Source of the DNA: Candidatus Methylomirabilota bacterium
GTDB lineage: Bacteria; Methylomirabilota; Methylomirabilia; Rokubacteriales; CSP1-6
Direction: 5' to 3'
Assembly (NCBI GenBank): GCA_036002485.1
Contig: DASYTI010000075.1
Span: forward strand, 1 to 41,968
Length of the DNA: 41,968 nt
Shown: piece after piece, positions 9,723 to 22,039 of the stretch
Numbering within the stretch: the stretch's first letter is position 1
Layout of the letters: each line of letters begins with the position of its first letter
The notes under the pieces: generated by a model
What the model was told of the DNA's origin: nothing
Database searches by the model: none
The model's input: only the letters and a program-made list of their open reading frames with translations
Made by a program: the position numbers and the translations under genes

Positions 9723-12700
9723 ATGAGCGACGAGACCCCCACTCCTATCGCCCGACCGGCGGCGGAGCCGCCCGCGGCGAGCGAAGTCCTCGAGGCCCGG
9801 CGGCGCGAGACCACGGGACTCCTGGCCGTCGCCCGCGTGGTAAGCACCACGACTGATCTGCCCGAGGCTCTCCGGCTCATCTGCCGGGAGCTCGGGCGGC
9901 TCACGGGAGCCGAGACGGTGTCGGCCTATCTCCACGATGGCCGCACGAGCCTGCTCCGGCCCATTGCCGCTCATGGAGTGCCCAAGCAGGCCGTGGAGGC
10001 CCTCAGCACGACGGCGCTCTCGCTCGACGTGCCCGCCGTCGCCGAGGGGCTCTTCAGCCACGGGCACATCGTCTGGTCGGACGATGTCGCGGGCGATCCG
10101 CGCTTCGCCGTGCAGCCCTTCAAGCGCTTCCCCCACCAGGCCGGCCTGGTCATCCCCATCGTCCTCGACGGGAAGATCTCCGGCGCCTTCCATCTGATCT
10201 GGTGGGAGCAGCGCCGGCGCTTCGACGCGGCGGAGCTGGCTCCGCTCCAGGTCATCGGCGAGCAAGCGGGGATCCTCCTGAACCACGCGCGGCTGCGGGA
10301 CGCCCTCGAGGGGCGCGCCATGCGGTTGCGGGCCCTGTCCCGCGTCAACCAGGTCGTCTCGTCCTCGCTCGACGAGCGCGAGGTCCTGGGCACCATCGCC
10401 CGCGCCGCCGCCGAGATGATGGGCGCGCCCTTCGTCTCCTTCTGGGTCGCCGACGAGGTGACGCATACGGTCACGCGACGCGCGGTCTCGGACGAGACAC
10501 TGGCCGTGGGGCTGCCCGACGCGCCCGTCGCCTACGGCGAGGGCGCCCTAGGCTGGGTCGCCGAGCGTCGCCAGAACCTGGACGTGCCCGATGTGACGCG
10601 GGACGAGCGCTTCGTCTTCCGCGACTGGTGGGCCGCGCGCGGGTTCAGGAGCTTCCTCGGCGTGCCCGTCATGCTCGAGGGCTCGCTCCTCGCCGTGCTC
10701 GCGATCTGCGGTCGGGCCCCCCTCCATCTGGGACCCGACGAGCGCGAGCTCCTGGAGAGCTTCGTGGCGCAGGCCGCGGTCGCCGTGCGCAATATGCGCC
10801 TGTACGCGGAGTCTGCTCTCTACGCCAACCGGCTGGAGACCTTGACGGGCCTGAGCCGCACCCTGACCGCCTCGCTCGATCCCGAGACCATCCTGCCCGC
10901 CGTGGTGGACGCGGCCCTCACCCTCTTCCCCGGCGGCGCCTGCCAGCTCTGGACGCTCGAGGGCGAGCGCTTGCGCCTGCGCGCCGAATCCGGAGAGGAG
11001 CCGTCCGGCCCGCGCCGTGGGCCTCTCGAGCTCGCACTCGGCGAGGGCGTGGTCGGCGAGGTGGCGGCCCGCGGCCGCTCGATCTTCGTGGACGATCTGC
11101 CCGCCCGTCTCGCCACGAGGCCGGACCCGTCGCTGGCTCCGGCCTTCGTCAAGGCGGGGATGGTCTCGGCCGCCACCCTGCCCCTCCTCGTCGCGGGGCA
11201 GGCCGTCGGCGTCGTCTGCCTCATGAGCGCCACGCGCCGCACCTTCACCTCGAGCGAGACCAAGGTCATGGAGGCCTTTGCCGAGCACGCCGCGGTGGCC
11301 CTGACCAAGGCCCGGCTCTTCCAGGACATCCAGGACCGCCGGCGGGTGAGCGAGGAGCTCTACACCCTGACCGTGGGCATGATGCGCTCCATGGATGTCC
11401 AGCAGCGCGTCGACACCTTTGTCCACGGCGCGCGCGAGGCGCTGAACTTCGACCGGATCAGCGTGCTCCTCGCCGACCCTGATGAGCACACCTTCGTCGT
11501 CGCCGCGAGCAGCGATCCCGAGGCGGCGGGCCGCCGGGTGCTGCCCATCGCGGGCAGCGGCGCCCTCGAGCGAGCCTGGACCTCGGGCGAGACGGTCATG
11601 GTGCTGACGGATGCCGATCTCGAGGCGCTGCCTCCGCTGCACCTGGACCTGCGGGAGCACCCGCTCCTGAGGCTGCGACGCTTCGCCGCGGTGCCCCTGC
11701 GCTTCCAGGAGCGCTCGATCGGCGTCGTGCTCGTGGACAACAAGGGCAGCCGTCGGCCCATCATGCGGCGAGGCGTCGCCCAGCTCGAGCTCTTCTGCCA
11801 GCAGCTCCAGAGCCTGGTCTCCAACGCCCGCCTCTGGGCGGAGACCCAGCGCCGCGAGCGGGACGCCACCCTGCTCCTCGATGTCACCCGTCGGCTGTCC
11901 TCCACCCTCGATCTCGAGCAGGTGCTCGACATCATCACGGAGAGCACGCTCGGGGTCCTCGAGTGCGACGCCTCGGGCTTCTACCGCTGGGACGCGGCGC
12001 GAAACGGCCTCGTCTTCGTCCGCGGCCGCCATGTGCCCGAGGCCATGACGCGCGCCATCGTGCTGCGCGCCGGGGAAGGGGTGAGTGGCCGCGCCTACGC
12101 GGAGCGCAAGCCCTCCTGGACGGCGGACGCGCACGCCGACCCTTCCCTCGGCTATTCCCAGGCGACCCGCGCGGCCCTGGCCGTCGAGGGCGCCCCGCGC
12201 GCTTTCATCGCGGCGCCCATCGTCATCCGCGACGAGGTGTTCGGCGTGCTCATGGGCGCCTCGCGGGAGCCGCGCCTCTTCTCCGAACAGGACGTGCACG
12301 TGCTCTCGACCATGGCCGCCCAGGCCGCGGTGGCCATCGAGAATGCGCGGCTCTACACGGTGACCCAATACAATCTCGCCGGGGCGGCCCTCCTGAACGA
12401 CGCGGCCCGCACGCTGCATCGCACGCTCGACGCCCGGCGTCTGCTTCCCGACGCGCTGGCCAGCCTCGGGCAGACCTTCAACGCGGTGGGCGCCGCCGTC
12501 ATGCTTTTCGGCGACACGGGCTCCGGGCAGGCCAAGGTCATTCGCTGGGGCACCTTGCCCGAGGACGCCGTGCGCGCGCTCGCCGAGCCGCTGCGACGGC
12601 GGGAGGCGCCGCTCCTCGTACCGGACGTGACGGCACGTCCGGAGCTGCTCCCCGAAGGTCTCCTCGAGCGTGGTCCGCGCGGTCTGGCCGCCTTCCCGGT

Positions 12701-14336
12701 GCGCGGCCGGAGCCGGGTGCTGGGAGGTCTCGTCCTCGTCTTCGCGGGGCCGCGCTCGCTCTACGAGGCGGAGACCCGGCTGCTCGCCGCCTATGCCGAC
12801 CAGCTCGCCATGGCCCTCGACAATGCCGCGCTGTTCGAGGAGGCGGAGAACAAGAAGACGCAGCTCGAACAGGTCTTCGCCTCGACCACCGACGGCTTTC
12901 TCGTGGCCGATCTTTCCGGTCGCATCGTCGCCTTCAACCGCCAGGGCGGTGACCTCCTGGGCATCTCCCCCGAGGAAGTCATCGGGCGCCCCTTCCATCG
13001 CCTCGTGGACGCGCTGGGGCCGGCCGTGGCCTGGGAGGCGGCGGGCGGGCGGGCCCTGGAGACCGTGATCACGGGCGGCCGGCCCGAGGCTGCCCTCGGC
13101 GATCTCGAGGTGCGCATGCCGGAGCCGCGCACGCTGGGATGGCGCGCGGCGCCCATGCGCGATCTGCTCGGCGGAGCCGTGGGCGTCACCATCACGTTCA
13201 ACGACGTCACGCGGCAGCGCGAGATCGACCGGATGAAGACCGAGTTCGTCTCCACCGTGTCGCACGAGCTCCGCACGCCGCTGACGTCCATCAAGGGCTC
13301 GCTCCACCTGCTCCTGTCGGATCCCGCCCTCACCCTCGACCATACCCAGCGCCAGCTGATCGACATCTCCGTCAAGAACACCGACCGCCTCATCCGGCTC
13401 ATCACCAATATCCTCGACATCTCCAAGATCGAGGCGGGCCACATCCAGCTCGACCTGGGGCCCCACCAGGTGGACGAGTTCGTGTCGGTGGCCGTGGACG
13501 GCATCGCGGCCTTCGCGGAGTCGCGCGGCATCACCATCACCGTCGACACGGATGCGGGGCTGCCGCCCCTCAAGGTGGATGTCGATCGCATGGTGCAGGT
13601 CGTCACCAATCTCCTGTCCAACGCCATCAAGTTCTCGCCCCCGGGCGGCAGCGTGAGCGTGACGGTGAAGCCCACGGGCCGAAAGGCCGAGCTGCGCGTG
13701 CGCGACCAGGGCCGTGGCATCGCCGCCGATGACATGGGCAAGCTCTTCAAGAAGTTCCAGCAGCTGGACGGTAGCAATGTCCGCTCGGTCGGGGGCACGG
13801 GGCTGGGCCTGGCCATCTGCCGGGGGATTGTCGAGGAGCACGGAGGCTCGATCGGGGTGGAGAGCCAGCTCGGCCAGGGGGCGACCTTCATCGTCAAGCT
13901 GCCCCTCCCGGTCGTGGAGGCGCCGCGGCCCGTCGACCGGGAATCCAGCGTGCCGAGCGGTCCGCTCATCCTGGTGGTGGACGACGAGCCCGACATCCGG
14001 ATGCTCTTGCGGGACCAGCTCGAGCTGGAGGGATTTCGCGTGCTCGAGGCGGGCCGTGCCCTGGAGGCAGTCGAGATCGCGCGCGAGCGGCTGCCCGACC
14101 TCGTGACCATGGACCTGATGCTCCCGGACCTCGACGGCTTCGAGGCCATCCGCCTCCTGCGCGAGAACGAGCGCACGCGGGAGACGCCCGTGGTCATCCT
14201 GTCCGCCATCGAGCTGGGCGACGACGACACGCGCGCCTTGGGTCCCACCGTCCACCTCGCCAAGCCGTTTTCCTCCGCGGATCTCCTGGCGGCGATCCGC
14301 GCCAACCTTCGTGTGGATCGGAGCGTCGGCCGATGA
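9723..14336 (+). CDS. Giant multi-GAF hybrid sensor histidine kinase
   Basis: At 1,537 residues this is exceptionally long for a kinase. Approximate order: about six GAF-type sensory modules in tandem (residues 30-190, 200-360, 365-540, 550-705, 710-880 and 885-1040), each ending in the usual AAVAIENARLY-like helix. A PAS module follows (about 1045-1150, FASTTDGFLVADLSGRIVAF). HisKA is SHELRTP with phospho-acceptor His1181. The HATPase has N box NLLSNAIKFS, DQGRGI and GTGLGLAICRGIVEEHGG. A C-terminal receiver has VVDDEPD (1419-1425) and phospho-acceptor Asp1464 (MDLMLPD). There is no membrane segment, so it senses cytoplasmic ligands. Its stop overlaps the start of the receiver-phosphatase gene, and the two form one signalling unit. 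The ligands are unknown. Confidence 0.92.
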   Translation: MSDETPTPIARPAAEPPAASEVLEARRRETTGLLAVARVVSTTTDLPEALRLICRELGRLTGAETVSAYLHDGRTSLLRPIAAHGVPKQAVEALSTTALSLDVPAVAEGLFSHGHIVWSDDVAGDPRFAVQPFKRFPHQAGLVIPIVLDGKISGAFHLIWWEQRRRFDAAELAPLQVIGEQAGILLNHARLRDALEGRAMRLRALSRVNQVVSSSLDEREVLGTIARAAAEMMGAPFVSFWVADEVTHTVTRRAVSDETLAVGLPDAPVAYGEGALGWVAERRQNLDVPDVTRDERFVFRDWWAARGFRSFLGVPVMLEGSLLAVLAICGRAPLHLGPDERELLESFVAQAAVAVRNMRLYAESALYANRLETLTGLSRTLTASLDPETILPAVVDAALTLFPGGACQLWTLEGERLRLRAESGEEPSGPRRGPLELALGEGVVGEVAARGRSIFVDDLPARLATRPDPSLAPAFVKAGMVSAATLPLLVAGQAVGVVCLMSATRRTFTSSETKVMEAFAEHAAVALTKARLFQDIQDRRRVSEELYTLTVGMMRSMDVQQRVDTFVHGAREALNFDRISVLLADPDEHTFVVAASSDPEAAGRRVLPIAGSGALERAWTSGETVMVLTDADLEALPPLHLDLREHPLLRLRRFAAVPLRFQERSIGVVLVDNKGSRRPIMRRGVAQLELFCQQLQSLVSNARLWAETQRRERDATLLLDVTRRLSSTLDLEQVLDIITESTLGVLECDASGFYRWDAARNGLVFVRGRHVPEAMTRAIVLRAGEGVSGRAYAERKPSWTADAHADPSLGYSQATRAALAVEGAPRAFIAAPIVIRDEVFGVLMGASREPRLFSEQDVHVLSTMAAQAAVAIENARLYTVTQYNLAGAALLNDAARTLHRTLDARRLLPDALASLGQTFNAVGAAVMLFGDTGSGQAKVIRWGTLPEDAVRALAEPLRRREAPLLVPDVTARPELLPEGLLERGPRGLAAFPVRGRSRVLGGLVLVFAGPRSLYEAETRLLAAYADQLAMALDNAALFEEAENKKTQLEQVFASTTDGFLVADLSGRIVAFNRQGGDLLGISPEEVIGRPFHRLVDALGPAVAWEAAGGRALETVITGGRPEAALGDLEVRMPEPRTLGWRAAPMRDLLGGAVGVTITFNDVTRQREIDRMKTEFVSTVSHELRTPLTSIKGSLHLLLSDPALTLDHTQRQLIDISVKNTDRLIRLITNILDISKIEAGHIQLDLGPHQVDEFVSVAVDGIAAFAESRGITITVDTDAGLPPLKVDVDRMVQVVTNLLSNAIKFSPPGGSVSVTVKPTGRKAELRVRDQGRGIAADDMGKLFKKFQQLDGSNVRSVGGTGLGLAICRGIVEEHGGSIGVESQLGQGATFIVKLPLPVVEAPRPVDRESSVPSGPLILVVDDEPDIRMLLRDQLELEGFRVLEAGRALEAVEIARERLPDLVTMDLMLPDLDGFEAIRLLRENERTRETPVVILSAIELGDDDTRALGPTVHLAKPFSSADLLAAIRANLRVDRSVGR

Positions 14337-15496: not shown

Positions 15497-15499
15497 ACT

Positions 15500-15690
15500 A
15501 GGAGGCTGTTCAAGTAGTTCGCATGCCCTCGCGAGCAAGAACGTTCGGCTTCGAGCGCCGGCTTGGCCGGCGCAGTTGTCAGATTGCTTGCCTCGGACGG
15601 CGGGGCCCCAGCCCCACGACGTCCTGCGGCTCGCACTGCGTCGGGGGGAGGATTCGGAAGGGGGGCGGAGCCCCCCTCCGAGATACTTAG
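15500..15690 (-). repeat. ~190-bp interspersed repeat, copy 1 (family B), inverted relative to copy 2
   Basis: The reverse complement of this stretch matches 21847-22027 along its whole length at well over 80 per cent by eye. Both copies keep a hairpin with arms GCGCCGGC / GCCGGCGC (here 15555-15573) whose loop differs, and a GGGGGC-GGA-GCCCCC-type hairpin at the other end. It fills the gap between the receiver-phosphatase gene and the CMD gene. No transposase or target-site duplication was recognised. Confidence 0.85.
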
Positions 15691-15699
15691 GAGGCGGCC

Positions 15700-16278
15700 G
15701 TGCCCAGAGTGCGCGAGATCGAAGACGACGGCGGCGATCCCATCTTGAAGGAAGTCTTCGCTCGACAGCATGAGCTCTTCGGGGGCCTACTGAATCCGAC
15801 CAAAGTTCTCGCGCACTGCCCGCCTATCCTCAAGGCGGCCGCCCAGCTCTCAGCCTCCATCGAGAAGTCCGGCCGGCTGCCCGCGGAGCTGCTGCCTCTG
15901 CTCTATCTCCGCGTGGCGCTGATCAATGGGTGTCCGTTCTGAATTGACATCAACGCATCCCGGGGGATGCAGGCGGGGGCGGACGAGGACAAGGTGAGAG
16001 AGGTGCCGACCTGGCGCGAGAGCACGCGCTTCTCGACCATGGAGCGCGCGGCCCTCGAATACGCGGAGGCCATGACCATCACGGGCCAGAAGGTGAGCGA
16101 CGAGCTTTTCGCCCGCCTCCGGACCATCTTCGACGAGGGGCAGATCGTCGAGCTCACGGCCGCGGTGGCCCTCGAGAACTTCCGCAGCAAGTTCAACGTG
16201 CCGCTGGGGATCGAGGCGCAGGGGTTCTGCACGATTACACCCCGCGCATCGAGCGACGCGGAGAGTCACCGCTCGTGA
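15700..16278 (+). CDS. CMD/AhpD-like protein with in-frame UGA at the CxxC motif (probable selenoprotein)
   Basis: GTG 15700 follows AGGAGG. The frame reads to NGCPF, meets TGA at 15940-15942, and continues in the same frame as IDINASRGMQAGADEDK to a TGA at 16276-16278. Read through, the product has 192 residues and aligns with carboxymuconolactone decarboxylase/AhpD-family proteins, whose active site here would be C-P-F-C. The UGA therefore replaces the second redox cysteine: Cys78, Pro79, Phe80, Sec81. Downstream sequence shows no decay; it keeps family motifs (MERAALEYAEAMT, VALENFRSKFNVPLGIEAQGFC) and high G+C third positions. A hairpin just after the UGA fits a bacterial SECIS. AhpD-like selenoproteins are known from metagenomes. 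The alternative is a TGC-to-TGA nonsense mutation. The selenocysteine machinery is not in this window. The likely role is thiol/peroxide redox chemistry. Confidence 0.78.
15955..15970 (+). promoter_or_regulatory. Candidate bacterial SECIS hairpin
   Basis: GCATCC-CGGG-GGATGC forms a six-base-pair stem with a four-base loop inside the coding sequence. The loop starts 18 bases after the UGA at 15940-15942. Bacterial SECIS elements as generally described have an apical loop roughly 16-37 bases after the UGA and a G among its first two loop bases; here the second loop base is G. The hairpin is short, so chance is possible, but position and shape both fit. Confidence 0.65.
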
Positions 16279-17498: not shown

Positions 17499-17598
17499 CG
17501 ACAGGACGGTGTCGTCCCCGCGAGCGTCGAGCCCCCTCGCCGCTCGTGGTGTTTTCAGAAGCGCCTTGGGAATCACGCGCAGGGATCAAGCGTTCTTT

Positions 17599-17629
17599 TA
17601 AGGAAGTCTTCGCCCGACCGCATGAGCTC
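17599..17629 (+). pseudogene. Short relic of the 5' part of a CMD/AhpD-like gene
   Basis: About 29 bases nearly identical to 15748-15777 in the CMD gene (encoding KEVFARxHEL) occur here with nothing of the rest of the gene. The fragment abuts the truncated end of the deacetylase-like relic on the other strand, which marks a rearrangement junction. Confidence 0.5.
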
Positions 17630-19203: not shown

Positions 19204-21032
<1,829 letters not shown>

Positions 21033-21036
<4 letters not shown>

Positions 21037-21506: not shown

Positions 21507-21842
21507 ATGGACATTGATGTGACCCAGTCCAGTGAGGTGACCGTGGTCGCGCCGAAAGGCGACCTGGACATGGCGGCCGCGGACCAGGTGAAGCGGACGC
21601 TCGGCGGGCTCATCGGGAAGGGTCAATCCCGGCTCGTCATGGATCTGGGCGGCGTGGGTTATATCGACAGCTCGGGCATGGGCGTGCTCGTCGCGGCCAT
21701 GAAGCAGGCTCGTGCCGCGGGCGGTGACGTCCGGCTCTGCGGGCTGCAGGAGGACGTCCGCGCCATCTTCGAGATGACCCGCCTGATCAAGGCCATGAGC
21801 GTCCACCCGACACGTCAGGAGGCGCTCGCCTCTTGGCGCTAG
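21507..21842 (+). CDS. STAS-domain anti-sigma factor antagonist (RsbV/SpoIIAA-like)
   Basis: The 111-residue single STAS domain has the phosphorylation motif YIDSSGMGVL, in which Ser56 corresponds to the serine phosphorylated by RsbW-type kinases. GGAGGAG precedes the ATG. Unphosphorylated antagonist would bind the RsbW-like kinase encoded just upstream, and the PP2C protein encoded at 14333 is a candidate activating phosphatase. The stop at 21842 is followed at once by the second copy of the ~190-bp repeat and then pelA. Confidence 0.92.
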   Translation: MDIDVTQSSEVTVVAPKGDLDMAAADQVKRTLGGLIGKGQSRLVMDLGGVGYIDSSGMGVLVAAMKQARAAGGDVRLCGLQEDVRAIFEMTRLIKAMSVHPTRQEALASWR

Positions 21843-21846
21843 GTGG

Positions 21847-22027
21847 CTCGGAGGAGGGCTCCGCCCCCCTTCCGGAGCCTCCCCCCGACGCAGTGCGAGC
21901 CGGAGGACGTCGCGGGGCTGGGGCCCTGCCGTCCGAGGCGAGCAATCTGAGAATTGCGCCGGCGAAGCCGGCGCTCGAAGCAGAACATTCCCGGTCGGGA
22001 GGACATGCGAACTACTCGAAGAGACCG
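21847..22027 (+). repeat. ~190-bp interspersed repeat, copy 2 (family B)
   Basis: It matches the reverse complement of 15500-15690. The conserved hairpin is GCGCCGGC-GAA-GCCGGCGC (21956-21974). The copy ends (ATGCGAACTACTCGAAGA) exactly where the signal peptide of the pelA hydrolase gene begins. It contains ATG 22005 with a perfect GGGAGGAC ribosome-binding site, but that frame stops after eight codons at 22029-22031. Confidence 0.85.
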
Positions 22028-22039
22028 CTAGGCCGCCGG

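Follow-up and report, generated by a model that had tools for sequence, protein, structure and literature searches.

Selenoproteins with a CxxU motif in the AhpD/CMD fold are known from environmental sequence data. Both CMD-domain and AhpD-like proteins of this kind were described in 2005 from the Sargasso Sea (PMC1088965) and again in 2008 from Global Ocean Sampling data (PMC2398784), in agreement with a preliminary description of the present locus, which had named AhpD-like selenoproteins from metagenomes. Both are also listed in a 2026 review, which refers in addition to one Methylomirabilota genome with 63 predicted selenoprotein genes (PMC13188914).

Here we compare with these systems a gene at positions 15700-16278 (+ strand) of a 41,968-nucleotide contig from a Candidatus Methylomirabilota bacterium; this whole stretch is referred to as the window. 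The contig (C75) belongs to a 4.45-Mb genome of 253 contigs, rated 95.7% complete. On comparative evidence, the gene almost certainly encodes a selenoprotein of the CMD/AhpD fold whose internal UGA is read as selenocysteine (Sec).

The gene and its protein family

A strong Shine-Dalgarno sequence, AGGAGG, can be read directly at 15689-15694 (+ strand), 5 nt 5' of the GTG start. From this start, 80 open codons lead to the in-frame TGA at 15940-15942, and 111 more follow it up to the terminal TGA at 16276-16278, giving a product of 192 residues when the UGA is counted as Sec. The active-site motif C78-P-F-U81 is encoded at 15931-15942, its UGA aligning with the second Cys of the CxxC in the solved structures PA0269 and Atu0492. 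Both the sequence and this alignment confirm what had first been noticed, namely a single frame broken only by a TGA where the motif would have its second Cys, and intact for 111 codons afterwards. C78 and residue 81 are invariant among 33 orthologues, as are D83 and N85. Since the window genes at 9723-14336 and 19204-21036 terminate with TGA, this codon is an ordinary stop in the genome.

The gene was assigned from its PF02627 match, its orthologues, and the constraint on either side of the TGA. The read-through product scores 52.9 bits against PF02627 (carboxymuconolactone decarboxylase fold, CMD), for which the gathering cut-off is 23. It falls below the cut-offs of the ahpD_dom model (26.0 bits vs 27.8) and of TIGR01926, the peroxidase-related enzyme (42.3 bits vs a curated 81.8). 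Against NF053654 it reaches 142.8 bits, under the curated cut-off of 310, and other members with the CPFU motif are also under it, at 133-176 bits. No full-length NCBIfam model was over its cut-off for the window protein and the six other members tried. A strict AhpD has a CxxC with a His four residues past the second Cys; here the CxxU is followed by Asn85. By its sequence, the protein is related to AhpD through the CMD fold, and the strict label is unsupported; of the AhpD/CMD-family name first given to it, the CMD part is upheld by PF02627 and the strict AhpD part is not, as Asn replaces His.

Repeated sequence occurs around the gene. Two copies of a dispersed repeat about 193 nt long, which has 47 matches in the genome, lie at 15498-15690 and 21839-22031; they are inverted and 87% alike, and the end of the former abuts the Shine-Dalgarno sequence. 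Separately, the 33 nt at 17597-17629 are 91% identical to 15745-15777 within the gene, with no wider homology around them; they are perhaps the scrap of a copy, or a chance match.

Conservation of the UGA and of the hairpin behind it

A six-frame search for orthologues in 148 genomes showed that, for the majority of the family's genomes, the best-matching gene is one with an internal TGA. In the 41 CPFU loci that were read directly, including the window's own, the TGA occupies the identical codon, as it does in all aligned orthologues of the clade. Besides the family, TGA orthologues span about ten other phyla; in a collection of named genomes, the CPFU clade with TGA is found in Alpha-, Beta- and Gammaproteobacteria (Pseudomonadota), Nitrospinota, Chloroflexota, Acidobacteriota, Myxococcota, Binatota, Tectomicrobia and others, and in two cultured strains, Reyranella soli NBRC 108950 and Vineibacter terrae CC-CFT640. 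Many Candidatus Rokuibacteriota genomes are among the closest named matches, and the window gene is placed among them in the tree, which makes a genome of Rokubacteria type (Methylomirabilota) probable.

In a tree of 92 rows, the window protein stands in a set of 58 rows made up of Sec forms throughout, with support of 94/85 for the set and 98/85 for an inner group of 38; the nearest large Cys group, of 24 rows (support 100/100), lies outside this set. No Cys member of the CPFU-DxN clade was found in the 58 tree rows, in a sample limited to 80 loci, and this does not reflect a bias against such members, because one of the patterns searched, L[IL]NGCPFC, gave preference to Cys codons. The nearest non-Sec homologues carry Cys in the column of residue 81.

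Some copies depart from this pattern. Two Rokubacteria copies carry internal deletions, one of which (L205) removes the Sec region with a frameshift, while the other (L196) removes the middle of the gene and leaves the Sec region in place; these are either real decay or assembly faults. In a CMD paralogue (L101, G047:C518), the Sec codon is TCG (Ser), the preceding residue is Cys (CPCS), and one pair of the former stem is broken, an arrangement suggesting that Sec was given up in favour of a shifted Cys.

Differences from close relatives were counted by codon position. Relative to the genus-mate G001, over 81 codons on each side of the TGA and with the hairpin left out, they number 14/4/38 upstream of it and 11/6/26 downstream; relative to G004, they number 6/6/18 and 3/4/17. 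The excess at third positions after the TGA indicates that the frame is translated, as an untranslated frame would not show it. Comparison thus establishes coding through the UGA, and, judged from these sequences, the region past it is under protein-level constraint equal to that of the region before it.

The hairpin GCATCC[CGGG]GGATGC lies at 15955-15970 (+ strand). It begins 12 nt after the TGA, its loop begins 18 nt after, and the second loop base is G, exactly the geometry first described. For bSECIS elements, a stem of 4-16 bp, a loop of 3-9 nt with G in the first two positions, and a loop 16-37 nt after the UGA have been given (PMC13188914); the window hairpin, with 6 bp, the loop CGGG and 18 nt, lies within these ranges. 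A 6-bp Watson-Crick stem with a loop of 3-5 nt, an early G and a loop start 18-21 nt on occurs by chance at 0.4% of window positions. The hairpin scores -7.7 kcal/mol, where the criterion is <= -7.5, but single-sequence folding of the 46 nt at 15940-15985 favours another structure (-11.8 kcal/mol, z -0.56), so that the element is established by comparison and not by its own stability. An Rfam match in the region was a chance match only.

At a fixed offset, all six pairs form in 40 out of 53 distinct CPFU sequences and five in another 10, and several pair types occur at four of the six stem positions. The stems vary accordingly, from GCATCA[CGTG]TGATGC in Vineibacter and TTCCGCC[CGTGC]GGCGGAA in Reyranella soli to TTCCAGC[CGTGT]GCTGGAA and TTCCTTC[CGTGT]GAAGGAA; a few sequences (L169, L190, L192 and L194, for example) have mismatched or shifted stems. 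Paralogues carry hairpins with other stems, such as GCTGCC[GTG]GGCAGC, CACGCC[GTC]GGCGTG, CCGCTTC[GTC]GAAGCGG and TTGCATC[GGC]GATGCAA. Covariation was counted on families with a 3-nt loop, plus by script in a fixed register: in a set of 14 paralogous sequences, pairing holds for 98.8% of cells, and the score of 0.564 compares with 0.160 in shuffles, none of 500 reaching the observed value, and with at most 0.125 when the register is slid. Of 39 Cys homologues, only 4 have at least five of the six pairs here.

Codon bias is overridden in the stem. Among orthologues, the stem Ala is encoded by GCA in 37 of 38 cases, against a background of 2.3% elsewhere in the same genes; the Ser codon is TCC in 41 of 41 (background 19%) and the Gly codon GGG in 39 of 41 (background 31%), although the sequences are related and binomial P-values overstate the effect. 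On this sequence evidence the hairpin is a real element, kept against codon bias and covarying within the clade and across paralogues. The check proposed in the preliminary description, an alignment of homologues, accordingly found the UGA kept in its column and the hairpin kept with compensatory changes. The insertion of Sec that it had proposed gains support from both, and we likewise infer that Sec is inserted at UGA 15940.

Selenocysteine machinery and readings without Sec

Profile and tRNA searches of the contigs revealed no selA, selB or tRNA-Sec in the assembly. Those low-scoring tRNA-Sec hits that were checked are ordinary tRNAs, and the SelB-profile hits are all below the cut-off and cover the N-terminal (GTPase) part only. 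In contrast, selD is over the cut-off twice, as a TGA-free copy on C54 and a TGA-bearing copy on C51 (L111, G000:C51; motif AACAGU-ASK), whose TGA lies at 1805-1803 on the minus strand and is followed by an 8-bp hairpin, GTCCCGGA[GATC]TCCGGGAC, with its loop starting 21 nt after the UGA. A search for the sel genes, suggested at the outset, was therefore only partly successful, and a genome without Sec machinery, which would have spoken against Sec, is on paper what the assembly presents for selA, selB and tRNA-Sec, incomplete as it is. The missing genes are present in most of the family: a SelA match was found in 52 of 57 genomes (two of these being pieces at contig edges) and tRNA-Sec over the cut-off in 51 of the 60 genomes searched; among distant TGA-bearing genomes, SelA is over the cut-off in 11 of 12. 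One genome of 240 contigs rated 100% complete (G035) resembles the window's genome in having the TGA orthologue and, in the assembly, neither SelA nor tRNA-Sec over the cut-off.

In the genus-mates G001 and G002, where gene names were assigned by reading translations, the order is selB-selA-(two genes)-selC-(cytochrome-like gene)-transglycosylase-PiT-DUF47. The window's genome has the transglycosylase-PiT-DUF47 block on C193 (6.9 kb), whose start matches the G001 stretch near position 14,100, leaving roughly 2 kb to selC; past this start, the 12.6 kb of that stretch holding the sel cluster has no match of more than 140 bases in the genome. Because the cluster of the relatives adjoins the block where C193 ends, an assembly gap appears likelier than true loss, and selA, selB and selC would lie in an unassembled part of the genome. 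The genome holds four more CMD-type genes with TGA at the second motif Cys (L086 on C149, L087 on C253, L088 on C15 and L154 on C59), each with a hairpin at the right distance from the TGA. The intact frames of the five TGA-bearing CMD genes and of selD also speak against true loss.

UGA readthrough is possible without Sec. With the sel genes absent from the assembly, the codon could be taken to specify tryptophan or another ordinary residue, through a changed code or selenium-free leaky readthrough; this is extremely improbable, given that TGA terminates other genes of the window, that the nearest non-Sec homologues have Cys in the column, and that a covarying hairpin stands at bSECIS spacing while relatives possess sel genes. 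Even less credence, practically none, can be given to an ordinary pseudogene or to a sequencing error in which TGC was read as TGA, which would account for the stop codon interrupting the frame and for nothing else; orthologues refute it, as the identical TGA recurs with the conserved hairpin in dozens of independent genomes. Somewhat less remote, although still very unlikely, is a recent loss of Sec insertion in this lineage, with the gene left as a relic that makes an 80-residue fragment. Such a loss would agree with the absence of selA, selB and tRNA-Sec and with the TGA gene of G035, which lacks selA in an assembly rated complete, but it is opposed by the syntenic block that breaks off just before selC, by the intact frames, and by the few first- and second-position differences from G004 after the TGA, which point to recent constraint. 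We thus retain translation of the UGA as Sec as the preferred reading.

Function and comparison with described proteins

The AlphaFold2 model predicts an all-helical fold (mean pLDDT 91), and its best PDB matches are PA0269 and Bmp8, with Atu0492 and other AhpD-like proteins also among them. Sec81 and Cys78 would form a CxxU redox pair. In AhpD-type proteins, the second CxxC position attacks and the first resolves. SelB would bind the hairpin at 15955-15970 and deliver Sec-tRNA to the UGA, placing Sec at position 81; by analogy, Sec81 would be the attacking group, form a selenenylsulfide with Cys78, and return to its reduced state through a cellular thiol system. A thiol/selenol oxidoreductase is thus the most likely identity of the protein. 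For peroxidase-like chemistry, we consider the chances to be about even, peroxide being the default guess for the substrate of Sec81.

The debrominase Bmp8 shows that the CMD fold is capable of other chemistry, and Sec81 might catalyse a reaction other than that of a peroxidase, such as reductive dehalogenation. Bmp8 aligns over residues 14-174 (E 9e-7) and Asn stands in place of the AhpD histidine; nevertheless, PA0269 and Atu0492, putative antioxidant proteins, are better sequence matches, and there is no conserved operon adjoining the gene across the clade, so we regard this as rather unlikely for a selenoprotein of this kind. A methyltransferase-like gene occurs nearby in 22 Rokubacteria loci, but is absent there in the window. 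The use of Sec in every sampled member of the CPFU-DxN clade, across about ten phyla, together with Asn for the AhpD His, tentatively suggests a selenium-dependent reaction other than that of classical alkylhydroperoxidase, a possibility to which we give somewhat more weight. Asn instead of His was also considered as a Sec-specific change and dropped, since Asn occurs in 26 of 41 Cys homologues.

Standard gene calling splits the gene, as the preliminary description had expected. Given that the cut-offs of full-length NCBIfam models are not reached, the gene has probably been overlooked or annotated as broken in many genomes, the cultured Reyranella soli and Vineibacter terrae probably included. 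Five CMD selenoprotein genes and a SelD in one incomplete genome add support to the view of Rokubacteria as selenoprotein-rich.

The window protein shares the Pfam domain (PF02627), the CxxU and the downstream SECIS with the CMD-like selenoprotein of the Sargasso Sea; that set of four sequences was compared by description, and the members of the window's clade sampled here are mostly not marine. With the AhpD-like selenoproteins (COG2128 AhpD-like 1 and PF02627 AhpD-like 2; PMC1088965, PMC2398784), likened by description, it has in common a CxxU in the AhpD/CMD fold, and differs in having Asn, not His, four residues after the Sec. Homology with NF053654, the YciW-related (seleno)protein (GroundWater_YciW), is full-length (3-175 of 179), and the C149 paralogue clears the cut-off for membership and has its TGA in the corresponding column, whereas its stem sequence is unlike that of the window gene, which falls short of the cut-off. 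PA0269 and Atu0492 (PDB 2IJC, 2O4D, 7XW1, 2GMY) share the predicted fold (TM about 0.9 on the target) and the CxxC position, Sec81 corresponding to their second Cys, but have Cys where the window protein has Sec, His where it has Asn85, and a shorter N-terminus. The gene thus belongs to an already known kind of CMD/AhpD-like CxxU selenoprotein, in a clade unnamed by current models.
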